Source: Anaerofustis stercorihominis DSM 17244 (lineage in GTDB: Bacteria > Bacillota > Clostridia > Eubacteriales > Anaerofustaceae). From it: a stretch of DNA of 64,000 nt. Both the position numbers and the translations under genes were made by a program. The notes beneath the pieces were generated by a model. It saw nothing but the letters and a program-made list of their open reading frames with translations, was not told where the DNA came from and ran no database searches. The DNA lies in assembly GCF_000154825.1 (NCBI RefSeq), contig NZ_DS560015.1:521052-585051 (forward strand). Direction: 5' to 3'. Positions 54,352-63,374 of this stretch are shown one piece after another. Within the stretch, counting starts at the first letter, position 1. Every line of letters begins with the position of its first letter.

Positions 54352-54771
54352 TTACTCCTTTTCGCTTATCCTTTCTTTAAGCATAAAGAAAAGCAATAAT
54401 ATTCCTACACCGACGAATATATGTCCTATACCGGCAATTCCCGATATCGCTGAAACAAGCGCCTTTGATATGTTCACATTTAACACTTGGATAACTCCAT
54501 GAACGGCTAACATAACGGAAGTTATCAAAACACCCAAATTATAAATGATATAAAATATATTGAATTTCCCTAAGCTAATTATATCGAATTTATCATTCAA
54601 TAGTAATATAACAAGGAACACGATCATGCCCAACATGAACAAATGTGCATGAACTTTTGAAAGCATGGTTACACCGGTAAATCCATTATATTTCGTAAAC
54701 TCTCTGTAAAATACCCCGCCTATCATTGCAAGTATTGCATACATAAATGAAGTATTCAATAATCTTTTCAT
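54352..54771 (-). CDS. DUF2871 family membrane protein
   Basis: 139 residues with four membrane segments (about 8-26, 42-60, 72-96, 108-131). The family motif SKVHAHLFMLGMIVFL is present near residue 40 and HxxxGxGHIFVGVGILLLFF near 112. DUF2871 proteins have no known function. AGGGAGGT-type site precedes the start. It is divergent from the Crp-type regulator. Confidence 0.85.
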   Translation of the reverse strand: MKRLLNTSFMYAILAMIGGVFYREFTKYNGFTGVTMLSKVHAHLFMLGMIVFLVILLLNDKFDIISLGKFNIFYIIYNLGVLITSVMLAVHGVIQVLNVNISKALVSAISGIAGIGHIFVGVGILLLFFMLKERISEKE

Positions 54772-54908: not shown

Positions 54909-54952
54909 TTGAAAAATCATAGTAAAAGATGTATAATTGTAACAAATGTTAC
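54909..54952 (+). promoter_or_regulatory. Promoter and Crp/Fnr-type site of the redox operon
   Basis: TTGAAA (54909-54914), 17 nt, TATAAT (54932-54937). Immediately after lies the palindrome GTAACA-AA-TGTTAC (54939-54952). It covers the transcription start, so bound regulator would block the promoter: autorepression. The palindrome resembles sites of HcpR-like Crp/Fnr regulators, as far as I recall them. Confidence 0.6.
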
Positions 54953-55026: not shown

Positions 55027-55704
55027 ATGGATTTAAAATTGATTGCCAAGTCTGAATTATTTAAAGGGATAGACGAAGTATCCATAGAAAAAATGCTTCA
55101 TTGTTCCAATTCAAGGATAAAAGAATATTCAGCGGATGAAATCATATTTAATGAAGATGAAATATCCGATTACCTTTATGTTTTGTTAAAAGGCGAGGTA
55201 ATGATAGTAAAAGATTATCCGTCGGGAAACAGGAATGTATTTTACGAAGTGGAAGACGGTGAGATTTTCGGAGATTTGTTTCATGGGTTGGATAACGCAC
55301 TGAATTATTATGATGCAATTTCCACAAAGAAATCAAAAGTCATGATAATACCGTGGAACTTTTTCTTCAACGTATGTGAAAAAGCATGCGAATTTCATAA
55401 AATGCTCATAAAAAACATCATGCAGCTTCAGTCAGATAAATCTCTTACACTGATGAAAAAAATACATATTTTATCCGCAACGACCTTGGAAGAAAAAATA
55501 GCTCTTTATTTAATTCAAAGTATGAAAGACGATAAAAGAGTAACACTAAATATGACAAGAGAAGAAATGGCGGATTATTTCGGAGTGAAAAGACCTTCAC
55601 TCTCGAGAAGTTTGATGAAAATGCAAAAAGACAATCTTATAAAAGTAGATAAAAAATATATCTTGGTCTTGAACCGGGAAAAACTTGAAGATTTATGTTT
55701 TTAA
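55027..55704 (+). CDS. Crp/Fnr family transcriptional regulator
   Basis: 225 residues. A cyclic-nucleotide-binding-like sensor domain (10-125: DYLYVLLKGEVMIVKDYPSGNRN, GEIFGDLFHGL), a long dimer helix (126-150), and a winged helix-turn-helix (about 150-220: TREEMADYFGVKRPSLSRSLMKMQKDNLIKVDKK). The four Fnr-type N-terminal cysteines are absent, so it is not a classic [4Fe-4S] Fnr; haem or nitrosyl sensing (HcpR/Dnr-like) is possible. It sits 28 nt upstream of the flavodiiron-superoxide reductase gene, so it most likely controls the response to NO or oxygen. Confidence 0.92.
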   Translation: MDLKLIAKSELFKGIDEVSIEKMLHCSNSRIKEYSADEIIFNEDEISDYLYVLLKGEVMIVKDYPSGNRNVFYEVEDGEIFGDLFHGLDNALNYYDAISTKKSKVMIIPWNFFFNVCEKACEFHKMLIKNIMQLQSDKSLTLMKKIHILSATTLEEKIALYLIQSMKDDKRVTLNMTREEMADYFGVKRPSLSRSLMKMQKDNLIKVDKKYILVLNREKLEDLCF

Positions 55705-55732: not shown

Positions 55733-57322
55733 ATGGAGAGTATCAGAAAAATAACCGAAGACTTATATTTTGTAGGAGCAAATGACAGAAGGATAGCACT
55801 TTTTGAAAACATTTATCCGGTAGACAGCGGAGTATCTTATAACTCATATTTACTTATGGATGAAAAAACCGTATTACTGGATACCGTAGACAAAAATGCA
55901 AGCAGTGAATTCTTAACAAACGTCAAAGCAGTGCTGAAAGACAGAAACCTTGATTATATCGTTGTAAACCACATGGAACCGGACCACTGTGCAATGATAG
56001 AAGAAATAGTGGAAAGATATCCCGATGTAAAAATAGTTGCAAATCAAAAAACAGTGAATATGATAAAACAGTTTTTTAACTTCGATATAGATTCAAGAGT
56101 AGTTTTGGTAAAGGAAAATGACACTTTGAACACAGGTAAACACACTCTTGCTTTCGTTATGGCACCTATGGTTCACTGGCCTGAAGTTATGGTTACTTAT
56201 GATACCACGGATAAAATCTTATTCTCAGCCGATGCCTTCGGGACATTCGGAGCTATAGACGGTAATTTATACACCGATGAAGTCGATTACGAAAAAGACT
56301 GGCTCGATGAAAACAGAAGATATTTTACAAATATCGTAGGAAAGTATGGTCCTCAGGTCCAGGCTACATTAAAAAAAGCTTCTGCCCTTGATATAGAAAT
56401 GATATGTCCTCTTCACGGTCACATTTGGAGAGATAAAAAAGACATAGAATTCATTTTGGATAAATATAATTTATGGAGCACTTATACTCCGGAAGAAAAA
56501 TCGGTGGTAATAGCTTACGCATCGATCTACGGTCATACCGAAGTTGCTGCGAATATTTTGGCAAATACATTGGCAGATAAGGGAGTTAAAAACATAAAAG
56601 TATATGATGTATCAAAAACCGATCCTTCATATATAATCTCGGATGCCTTCAAGTATTCAACTCTTGTGTTCGCATCTATAACTTACAACAACGAAATATT
56701 CCCTAAAATGGAAGCTCTTCTTCACGAAGTGGCGGCTCACAATATTCAAAACAGGGATATTGCACTCATAGAAAACGGTTCATGGGGACCTTCGGCAAAT
56801 AAAAAGATGAAAGCTATTTTGGAAAAACTCAAAAACTGTAATTTTATAGAAGAAGAAGTAACTATAAAATCAGCACTCAAAGAGGACAGCTTAAATAGTT
56901 TGAATAACTTAGCAGACCAAATAATAAAAAAGAGAGGTAAAAAAATCATGGAAGCAAAATTTTACAGATGTAACCACTGCGGAAACATAATCGTTTTCGC
57001 AAAAAATCAAGGAGTACCGGTAATGTGCTGCGGAGAAAAAATGGAAGAACTAAAAGCGGGAACAACAGATGCGGCAGTTGAAAAACATGTACCTGCAGTA
57101 AGCGTTGACGGTAATAAAGTAAGCGTACAAGTAGGAGATGTTATTCATCCTATGGAAGAAAAACATCACATTGAATTCATTTGGATAGAAACAAAAATGG
57201 GTCACCAAATCAAGAATTTAAAACCGGGTGACGAACCTAAAGCTGAATTTATTTTAGCAGACGGAGATGAACTTGTTGCTACATATGAATATTGTAATCT
57301 TCACGGATTATGGAAAAAATAA
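55733..57322 (+). CDS. Flavodiiron protein fused to desulfoferrodoxin (superoxide reductase)
   Basis: 529 residues. Residues 1-250 form a metallo-beta-lactamase-like diiron domain: His80, Glu82, Asp84 and His85 in HMEPDH, further ligands in MVHWPE and SADAFG, and CPLHGHIWR near residue 226. Residues 255-400 are a flavodoxin FMN domain (YASIYGHTE, GSWGPSA). Residues about 406-529 are a complete class II desulfoferrodoxin: Cys-rich desulforedoxin site CNHCG...CCGEKM, then the neelaredoxin iron site with EKHVP, KHHIEF and C-x2-HGLW. FDPs reduce O2 or NO; Dfx reduces superoxide. A GAGAGG site 10 nt before Met406 suggests the SOR can also be made alone. Operon with the Crp-type regulator. Confidence 0.93.
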   Translation: MESIRKITEDLYFVGANDRRIALFENIYPVDSGVSYNSYLLMDEKTVLLDTVDKNASSEFLTNVKAVLKDRNLDYIVVNHMEPDHCAMIEEIVERYPDVKIVANQKTVNMIKQFFNFDIDSRVVLVKENDTLNTGKHTLAFVMAPMVHWPEVMVTYDTTDKILFSADAFGTFGAIDGNLYTDEVDYEKDWLDENRRYFTNIVGKYGPQVQATLKKASALDIEMICPLHGHIWRDKKDIEFILDKYNLWSTYTPEEKSVVIAYASIYGHTEVAANILANTLADKGVKNIKVYDVSKTDPSYIISDAFKYSTLVFASITYNNEIFPKMEALLHEVAAHNIQNRDIALIENGSWGPSANKKMKAILEKLKNCNFIEEEVTIKSALKEDSLNSLNNLADQIIKKRGKKIMEAKFYRCNHCGNIIVFAKNQGVPVMCCGEKMEELKAGTTDAAVEKHVPAVSVDGNKVSVQVGDVIHPMEEKHHIEFIWIETKMGHQIKNLKPGDEPKAEFILADGDELVATYEYCNLHGLWKK

Positions 57323-57327
57323 TAATT

Positions 57328-57355
57328 AAAAAAAGGAGCATACAGCTCCTTTTTT
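57328..57355. terminator. Bidirectional terminator between redox operon and topA
   Basis: AAAAAAAGGAGC (57328-57339) and GCTCCTTTTTT (57345-57355), T-runs on both strands. Overlaps the topA stop codon. Confidence 0.8.
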
Positions 57356-61400: not shown

Positions 61401-61430
61401 AAATGCCGGTGAACCCGGCATTTTATTTTA
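61401..61430. terminator. Terminator between GNAT and portal genes
   Basis: AAATGCCGG (61401-61409), TGAAC loop, CCGGCATTT (61415-61423), followed by TATTTT. The T-tail is good for the GNAT gene and weaker on the portal strand. Confidence 0.7.
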
Positions 61431-63374
61431 TGAAGCGGAATTCAACGCTTTATCGTGAAGCTCTATATGTTTTAAAAATCTGTTTTCAAGGTCTCCGTCA
61501 TTTTCGCAGGCATTTTCAAACTCTTCGCTTAACATAAAGTTTATATGTTCATTCTTATGCAGTTCATGTTCGTCGTAAGGTTTGAATTTAGCTTCTCTGC
61601 CCTTTAGCATATTGATATTCTCCCTGTCAACTTTGGATATATTAGGATTAACGCTTTCGCAGTAATCTTCCCAGTTCCCAAGCTCTATCATCTCAAAGAG
61701 TTTTACCAATGTTTCCTTTGTTACCTTTCCCGTATCGGGGTCGTTGAAAAGTCCCCTCTCCATAAGGTCAAGGACAAGTTCTCTCCTGCTTTCAGGGGTC
61801 TTTGCAAGGAGTGACGTGCTGTCGATATATATATCCGTGGAATTTATATTCGTCCCGTCCCAGTAAAATACCTCTACCTGACCTTTCATATCCACATACT
61901 TGGAAAGTCTCGGGGTCGTAACGGAATTTTTGAGTATCCTAAGCGTCTGCTTTGCTATTTTTATTCTCGTGTCGTACATATTTTCATAGTTTAGAGCGAG
62001 CCTCGTATCGTCCTGATCCTGAAGCAATGACAGTGCCACACCCGAAGTTACGTTCTTCGGATTGTAAGAGTTCCTGCTCATCTCGCTCACTCCGCTGAGT
62101 GTAATAAAGAGTTCTTCCGTTGCTTTCTCGTCGCTGAGTATAGTCGAAGGAAGTGCGGGCGTCCTAAGATATGACGGTTCTTCGCTTCCCTGTCTTCTCG
62201 GTATCACAGCCCCCGGAGCAAGCCCCATATCAATGACGTCATCTTCGTCGATACTCCCCTTTTCGTATGTTATCTGTCCTATTGCCACCCTGTTCAAATA
62301 TTCCTGCTTCCTGTTCTTGATGTTATTAAATCTTCTCTGAAGAGGTATGAGCCTGTTTATTATACTCTCTCCGAAAAATTCTCCGTAATCGAGAGATTTC
62401 TGAATTACAAAGGGAAGTTCTCTTTCTCCGTCTTCTGCGTTTATATAAGGCAGGTCTCCCATATGAAGCACATTATCTTTTGTACAAACTATATATCTGC
62501 CTTTGGGATATCGATTTGTGGGCTTTTCGAAGTAGGATATGACCTCTGCGCTCAAATCGATATTTTTGCTGCTTTCGCTGTAACCGTGACCTTTGCTTCC
62601 GAGACCTCCCACGTTCGTTTTCGATTTGGAATAAGACACTACGTTGTTTTCATATCCCTCTACGGTAATATTGAACATATTTTCTATCTCTTTCACGCTC
62701 ATCACTTTATACCATATGGCATAGTCTAAACTCTCAATGTCTTTCGCATATACATTTGAAGGGAAAAAATCAAAAGGAGATATAATTTCATAATTTATAC
62801 CTCCTTCTTTTATTGCTACATTTATTTTCTCTTTTTTATCGCTGTTTTCTTTTACAACATACTGTTCTTTATAACCTATGGTCTTTCCTTTATTTTTATC
62901 CCAAAATACTCCCCATATGGCGCTTCCCGTCTTCTCCGCCCATATATTCGCCTGCTTTTGAAGTTTCTTCATCTCCAAGTCTTCTTCTATGCTCTCAAGT
63001 ATTTTTTTGCATACCTTGCTGGATTTGACATCGTCCTTGGAATTCGTGGCGGGTCTTACGTTCATAAGAACTTTAAGCTTTGATAACTTTGCAAGCCTCG
63101 TATCGTATATGGGAGCTATCTGATTGAACACTTCTCTCTCCTGCCACCACTGCACATTATCCACCTCCATTATTCCTCCGCTTACAGAATCGATGTATGA
63201 ATACTGATCTCCCTGAAGAAAGTTTATGGCAAGCCTCCACTTCAGTTCATACGGAAGTCTTTCTCTCCTTTTTTTCTCCAGCAAATCGAATATAAATGAA
63301 CATATTTCGTGCTCGTCGTACTTTGCTTCTTTTTTGTCTTTAATGACCGCTTCTTCTTTTTTTATATACTTCAT
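61428..63374 (-). CDS. Phage portal protein (P22-like/podovirus type)
   Basis: 648 residues. The N-terminal stem region (1-130) has WRLAINFLQGDQYSYID and WQEREVFNQIAPIYDTRLAKL. The central part carries GSAIWGVFWDKNKG and EIISPFDFFPSNV, and the wing and clip region FGESIINRLIPLQRRFNNI followed by NRKQEYLNR, which is the portal hallmark. The C-terminal part has GVALSLLQDQDDTRLAL and LSGVSEMSRN. Portals form the dodecameric DNA entry ring of phage heads. The gene is intact with an AGGAGG site. The companion scaffold and capsid genes lie about 51 kb away on the same strand; no terminase is in the window. Confidence 0.9.
   Translation of the reverse strand: MKYIKKEEAVIKDKKEAKYDEHEICSFIFDLLEKKRRERLPYELKWRLAINFLQGDQYSYIDSVSGGIMEVDNVQWWQEREVFNQIAPIYDTRLAKLSKLKVLMNVRPATNSKDDVKSSKVCKKILESIEEDLEMKKLQKQANIWAEKTGSAIWGVFWDKNKGKTIGYKEQYVVKENSDKKEKINVAIKEGGINYEIISPFDFFPSNVYAKDIESLDYAIWYKVMSVKEIENMFNITVEGYENNVVSYSKSKTNVGGLGSKGHGYSESSKNIDLSAEVISYFEKPTNRYPKGRYIVCTKDNVLHMGDLPYINAEDGERELPFVIQKSLDYGEFFGESIINRLIPLQRRFNNIKNRKQEYLNRVAIGQITYEKGSIDEDDVIDMGLAPGAVIPRRQGSEEPSYLRTPALPSTILSDEKATEELFITLSGVSEMSRNSYNPKNVTSGVALSLLQDQDDTRLALNYENMYDTRIKIAKQTLRILKNSVTTPRLSKYVDMKGQVEVFYWDGTNINSTDIYIDSTSLLAKTPESRRELVLDLMERGLFNDPDTGKVTKETLVKLFEMIELGNWEDYCESVNPNISKVDRENINMLKGREAKFKPYDEHELHKNEHINFMLSEEFENACENDGDLENRFLKHIELHDKALNSAS

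Follow-up and report, generated by a model that had tools for sequence, protein, structure and literature searches.

A flavodiiron protein gene apparently fused in recent times with its superoxide reductase neighbour in Anaerofustis stercorihominis

Flavodiiron proteins (FDPs) have been divided into classes A to H (PMC6033852) and, in a 2025 review, into nine classes, A to I (PMC12288474). In the portions of these papers and of PMC9364112 that were available, the partner domains of multidomain FDPs comprise rubredoxin, short rubredoxin, NADH:rubredoxin oxidoreductase (NROR), flavin reductase and [4Fe-4S] domains. The protein described here shares with the multidomain classes the diiron and FMN core as well as the presence of an extra C-terminal redox domain, but its partner is a superoxide reductase (SOR), which is not among the partner domains named in those portions. 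SORs have been catalogued in SORGOdb, where, in the sections of the text available, 19 HTH-Dx-SOR and 10 'Atypical-SOR', i.e., exceptional fusions or proteins with mutated Dx domains, are counted (PMC3116461). Anaerofustis, flavodoxin and lactamase are all absent from the main text of that paper (PMC3116461); SORGOdb covers the draft genomes of May 2010, and the fused protein might therefore be found in its supplement. When compared with Dx-SOR proteins, the SOR part of the fused protein has the same complete centres I and II and is full length from its own methionine; unlike them, it carries a 405-residue N-terminal stretch with another enzyme.

Genes for the two enzymes are also known as neighbors. 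In Clostridium acetobutylicum, according to the part of the literature at hand, an NROR-FprA2-desulfoferrodoxin operon serves the removal of O2 and reactive oxygen species. FDP and desulfoferrodoxin are thus encoded in one operon in that organism, although as separate proteins, and sharing an operon suggests that the two enzymes belong together physiologically. In Desulfovibrio vulgaris, dfx (DVU_3183) and fdp (DVU_3185) are two locus-tag numbers apart in the excerpt available (PMC10156729). The SOR and FDP genes are near each other there, but they are not fused. We take this neighborhood to be the rbo-rub-roo cluster, with the SOR gene first and a rubredoxin gene in between. No FDP-SOR fusion is named in the literature titles and abstract openings that were searched, and the same search returned no paper combining Anaerofustis and flavodiiron. 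In what follows we argue for a probable recent fusion of two operon genes, joining a pair of enzymes that we have not found described as one protein and whose joint function is putative.

The window, i.e., the whole 64,000-nucleotide stretch of A. stercorihominis DSM 17244 DNA that was analyzed, belongs to a genome (G000) that comprises 5 contigs and 2,284,703 bases. Positions 55733-57322 (+) form a single stop-free frame of 529 residues with one terminal stop, and translation yields a complete FDP core that a 7-residue linker connects to a complete two-iron SOR starting at Met406 (Table 1). Four Pfam families score above their cut-offs along this chain: ODP (residues 34-229), Flavodoxin_1 (260-365), Desulfoferrod_N (409-439) and Desulfoferrodox (445-528). 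The initial annotation, made from the letters of the DNA, had described an FDP joined in frame to a full two-iron SOR, with a GAGAGG site and the ATG at 56948 lying at the fusion point; both statements hold, the former by translation, Pfam and complete ligand sets, and the latter with GAGAGG placed 10 nt from the ATG. Its estimate of about 14 kDa for the SOR alone agrees with the calculated 13.9 kDa, whereas the fusion, at 60.1 kDa, is slightly heavier than the 59 kDa proposed.

Table 1. Positions, within the window, of the fused gene's parts and of the elements around it.
Feature	Position	Strand	Basis
Promoter-like site TTGAAA, 17 nt, TATAAT (11/12), upstream of the regulator	54909..54937	+	Consensus scan
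Crp/Fnr-family regulator gene, 28 nt upstream of the fused gene	55027..55704	+	Pfam HTH_Crp_2 and cNMP_binding above cut-offs
FDP core, residues 1-399 (diiron lactamase-like and flavodoxin domains)	55733..56929	+	Pfam, ligand motifs, PDB matches
AATAAAA, sole remaining copy of the 7-nt repeat bounding the 18-nt gap	56923..56929	+	Alignment to G002
Linker codons KKRGKKI, residues 399-405	56927..56947	+	Counterpart in G002 is the gap before the SOR gene
GAGAGG, candidate ribosome-binding site kept from a free-standing SOR gene	56932..56937	+	Identical to G002
Two-iron SOR (desulfoferrodoxin), residues 406-529, own ATG retained	56948..57322	+	Pfam, ligand motifs, alignment to 1DFX
Intrinsic-terminator-like hairpin after the fused gene, before a convergent gene	57329..57355	+	Consensus scan, scored on both strands

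In the FDP core all seven diiron ligands are present (H80, E82, D84, H85, H148, D167 and H228), and they correspond to the set given for Clostridioides difficile FDPs in the part of PMC6033852 available. The lactamase-like domain is followed by an FMN domain (PF00258, 29.3 bits against a cut-off of 25, residues 260-365). Searched against the PDB, the core matches 14 distinct sequences at E <= 1e-30, annotated as flavorubredoxin, nitric oxide reductase, rubredoxin:oxygen oxidoreductase, FprA or flavoprotein. Class A FDPs have no further domain, and here a complete SOR continues in frame; with regard to the multidomain classes (B-H or B-I), Pfam detects no rubredoxin, short rubredoxin, NROR, flavin reductase or [4Fe-4S] domain, and beyond residue 400 it reports solely the two desulfoferrodoxin families. 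Aligned to desulfoferrodoxin 1DFX, the SOR part contains centre I as C413, C416, C432 and C433, in the CX2CX15CC arrangement of Dx-SOR (motif from the portion of PMC3116461 available), and centre II as H452, H472-x5-H478 and C521-x2-H524. It passes the cut-offs of PF01880 and PF06397, even though it stays below that of the desulfoferrodoxin equivalog TIGR00320 (dfx_rbo; 126.9 bits against 146.9). Judged from domains and ligands, both enzymes in the fused frame are complete. In an AlphaFold model of the fused protein, pLDDT is below 50 at residues 403-409, 423-435 and 441-529; the SOR part is thus poorly modeled, and the model is silent on how the domains pack.

The origin of the fusion can be read from the nearest relative (G002, locus L054), whose FDP and SOR are 95% and 99% identical to the two halves and are encoded by separate genes. 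There, the FDP ends with ...QIIKSL followed by TAA, and after a further 27 nt the SOR ATG stands in the same frame. Over the FDP-SOR stretch the alignment of the two genomes contains a single gap, in which the window lacks 18 nt at position 56922; the missing nucleotides include the FDP stop codon, and the reading frame is preserved. There are 8 equivalent alignments of this gap, since its ends share the 7 nt AATAAAA, and the first AAA of the linker is ambiguous owing to the same repeat. As G002 is an exact unfused counterpart that differs by one 18-nt change at the junction, the fusion goes beyond chance, and the proposal of the initial annotation that two adjacent genes had lost the first stop is strongly supported. 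The dN/dS values between the fused gene and its G002 counterparts (0.06 for the FDP and 0.01 for the SOR) indicate that purifying selection has acted on both parts in the comparison of these species; the measure pools both branches and is thus no evidence of selection since the fusion.

Five other tight FDP-SOR pairs (G002, G001, L055, G189 and G873) have the same gene order and strand, and all have a stop between the two genes. In G001, also an Anaerofustis, the FDP stop is TAG and is followed by a 46-nt gap, with the SOR in another frame. In L055 the FDP ends with TAA, 57 nt before an SOR in the same frame, with two stops between FDP and SOR; in G873, TAA is followed after 24 nt by an SOR in the same frame; and in G189 the FDP stop is TGA and the SOR lies in another frame. 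We also note that in G007 (L013:666-2441) genes for FDP, rubredoxin and SOR are consecutive, in that order and on one strand, without being fused. Because the pairs of G001, L055, G189, G873 and G007 are unfused, the fused state is most simply seen as derived in the lineage of the window.

In the loci surveyed, proximity of the two genes is not the usual arrangement. An SOR accompanies the FDP in 3 of the best 80 named loci (L054-L056), all three with stops in between, 20 of the 80 named stretches being shorter than 7,000 bases. An SOR was found in none of 20 close FDP regions, 12 of which contain a rubredoxin match, and in none of 20 further FDP regions picked for long frames or matches past the FDP end. 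In the phylum of locus L113, SOR and FDP are close to each other in two genomes, G873, with the stop mentioned above, and G947, where the SOR comes first.

The occurrence of the fusion was surveyed with the whole protein (genus, family, order and class) or with residues 301-529 (class, phylum and the phylum of L113), a fusion being a match that covers most of both domains without a stop. It is present in one of three Anaerofustis genomes. Apart from the window's own, no fusion was found in the family (13 genomes, 11 with any match), among the matches listed for the order (67 genomes, at least 64 with a match at 1e-15) or among those listed for the class with the whole protein (391 genomes, at least 216 with a match at 1e-60). 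With residues 301-529 there was likewise no other fusion in the class (27 of 391 genomes with a match at 1e-46) or the phylum (37 of 398 at 1e-35), and none among the matches listed for the phylum of L113 (296 genomes, at least 139 with a match at 1e-20). These sets are overlapping samples, in which many or most of the class, phylum and L113-phylum genomes fall below the match limits, so that a distant fusion could be missed; two further phyla (198 and 194 genomes) gave zero matches and carry no weight as to the rarity of the fusion. The initial annotation had named presence of the fusion throughout the family as a finding that would speak against it, and on these counts a family trait can be rejected. 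Where it was decisive, the DNA itself was read, as automated open-frame figures were misleading (592 for G007 and 552 for the genome of L055, despite stops in both). Some SOR matches have up to about 25 stop-free upstream residues (G828 from query residue 82, G687 from residue 88), in frames of less than 180 aa that are too short for an FDP, and are not fusions; nor are the longer than usual SOR frames of L198-L201 fusions with an FDP.

The deletion left the start of the former SOR gene untouched. The stretch AAAAAGAGAGGTAAAAAAATCATG ahead of the SOR is unchanged from G002, in which it forms the start of a separate SOR gene. It is predicted to pair with the 16S tail at -9.3 kcal/mol, compared with a median of -7.7 kcal/mol for 53 gene starts in the window, 16 of which are as strong or stronger; for 377 internal in-frame ATGs of the window the median is -2.4 kcal/mol, and the SOR ATG is among the best 8, itself included. 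These statistics refer to the 64-kb window, and the gene starts are the first ATGs of long, mechanically chosen frames. Folding of the RNA near the SOR start is not unusual; the 10-nt spacing between site and ATG is somewhat long, and elongating ribosomes may hinder internal initiation there. Given that the ribosome-binding site and the ATG are unchanged, free SOR would still be made, and the protein is probably produced both in fused form (60.1 kDa) and alone (13.9 kDa). The suggestion of the initial annotation that the SOR is made in both ways thus draws its support from sequence, namely a site identical to that of G002 and stronger than the window's median gene start.

Flanking elements are consistent with, and weakly suggest, a single transcript, from the promoter-like site before the regulator to the hairpin after the SOR (Table 1); this reading is weak as promoter-like sites are about twice as frequent as in shuffled sequence (23 found against 12.0), and terminator-like hairpins number 2 against 0.9 expected in shuffles. 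The regulator gene precedes the FDP-SOR stretch in G002 as well (597 of 675 nt identical). On its other side it adjoins a divergent DUF2871 gene at 54352-54771 (-; PF11070, 156 bits). At some distance, 61428-63374 (-) encode a 648-residue open reading frame that by eye resembles a phage portal protein, and a prophage may begin there.

We consider it highly likely that loss of 18 nt fused an fdp-sor pair, that the locus now gives a 60-kDa chain together with free SOR, and that the main effect is to tether the two enzymes. According to this scheme, slippage between two copies of AATAAAA would have cost the pair behind the Crp/Fnr gene its 18 nt; the loss itself is taken from the comparison with G002, and slippage as its cause is inferred from the repeats. 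The deletion would have removed the FDP stop together with the last two FDP residues and kept the frame, so that the former intergenic gap became the KKRGKKI linker. Ribosomes starting at 55733 would then produce the 60-kDa FDP-SOR chain, and those binding the untouched SOR site the free 13.9-kDa SOR. Each module would probably keep its own chemistry as known from its family: the diiron site would reduce O2 to water or NO to N2O and the SOR iron would reduce superoxide to H2O2, with rubredoxin feeding both. Reduced rubredoxin is given as electron donor of SOR in the part of PMC10156729 available, and, according to the corresponding portion of PMC11980386, an E. coli FDP can pass electrons from its rubredoxin domain to C. 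difficile Sor, which makes a common donor for FDP and SOR plausible. A rubredoxin frame lies outside the window (G000:C1:647366-647506, 64 aa by automated count). The fusion would thus mainly tether two enzymes that were probably already co-expressed, and the locus looks like a multidomain redox enzyme in which a new gene fusion has been caught early. In this pair of sister species one can read both states, unfused and fused, along with the exact 18-nt change that separates them, and the old start is still in place.

What such tethering is worth is a question separate from its origin. We would give about an even chance to a neutral or mildly harmful accident, in which the deletion rose by drift in a single strain, or in culture, and was tolerated; this concerns the value of the fusion and may well be the whole story. 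The fusion occurs in one genome only, the five other tight pairs have stayed unfused and the SOR start has been kept unchanged. Moreover, the same genome contains a second SOR (C5:688453, 59%) and a second FDP (C3:42354, 56%), both unfused, and with these paralogues at hand the fusion may be neutral. Against decay after such an accident, both halves keep complete active sites in an open frame. If neutral, the case would illustrate the ease with which operon genes merge when they lie close together in the same frame. It is less probable, in our estimate unlikely, that the coupling is adaptive, with a single chain clearing O2 (or NO) and superoxide at a 1:1 supply from a shared electron donor. 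The operon partnership of FDP and desulfoferrodoxin in C. acetobutylicum and the repeated gain of C-terminal redox domains by FDPs (PMC6033852, PMC9364112, PMC12288474, in the portions available) would fit such a benefit, but the sampled genomes contain no second fused lineage. If the fusion were fixed and useful, SOR would join the partner domains of FDPs, and the locus would offer a clean system for measuring what is gained by tethering operon partners. To our knowledge, superoxide is not normally released by FDPs, and channelling from the FDP to the SOR is therefore not obvious.

Still more doubtful is a new FDP class in which the SOR's Fe(Cys)4 centre takes the C-terminal place that rubredoxin has in flavorubredoxins, and electrons pass within the chain from FMN to Fe(Cys)4 to the SOR iron. 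The order of redox potentials, from FMN through the Dx centre to the SOR iron, is downhill. In such a class, a single supply of electrons would serve to clear both O2 (or NO) and superoxide, and the balance between fused and free SOR would be set by the SOR start that has been retained. We regard it as very improbable that sequencing or assembly dropped the 18 nt between short repeats. The gap does lie exactly between 7-nt repeats, but repeats of this length do not normally mislead assemblers, the frame is intact on both sides and the flanks match G002: outside the 18-nt gap, the alignment contains three 1-nt gaps, located in the spacers that precede the regulator and FDP genes, and a 4-nt gap beyond the SOR, and 250 of 278 nt are identical downstream of the SOR. 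A homopolymer error in particular is an unlikely cause, as the A6 and A7 runs beside the gap have the same length as in G002. Although one gap separates the two junctions, so that the pair alone gives no direction, an ancestral fusion whose stop was regained in G002 by insertion is the least credible reading of all, given the separate genes in G001, of the same genus, and in L055, G189 and G873.

At further loci, too, a rubredoxin or SOR-like part seems to be joined to other domains. In the genome of the window, a rubredoxin follows an acyl-CoA dehydrogenase and an ETF-alpha FAD domain in one fused protein (L002:1-1482 and 1498-2697, G000:C3:40854-43550; L167), whose gene ends 12 nt before the second FDP gene. 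Locus L004 (G000:C1:293362-293709) has, by eye, an N-terminal helix-turn-helix and a desulfoferrodoxin-like part in which several iron ligands are missing; it resembles a degenerate HTH-Dx-SOR, its matched part belongs to no Pfam family at E 0.001, and L009 (G002) aligns to that part of the query as well. Finally, L200:1231-2058 (G856) is a 276-residue frame in which what appears by eye to be a regulator of the Fur/PerR type is joined with a complete two-iron SOR; GAGGAGGAAAAAATG lies at its junction, and it would be a fusion of this sort from a different lineage, again with its start site retained.
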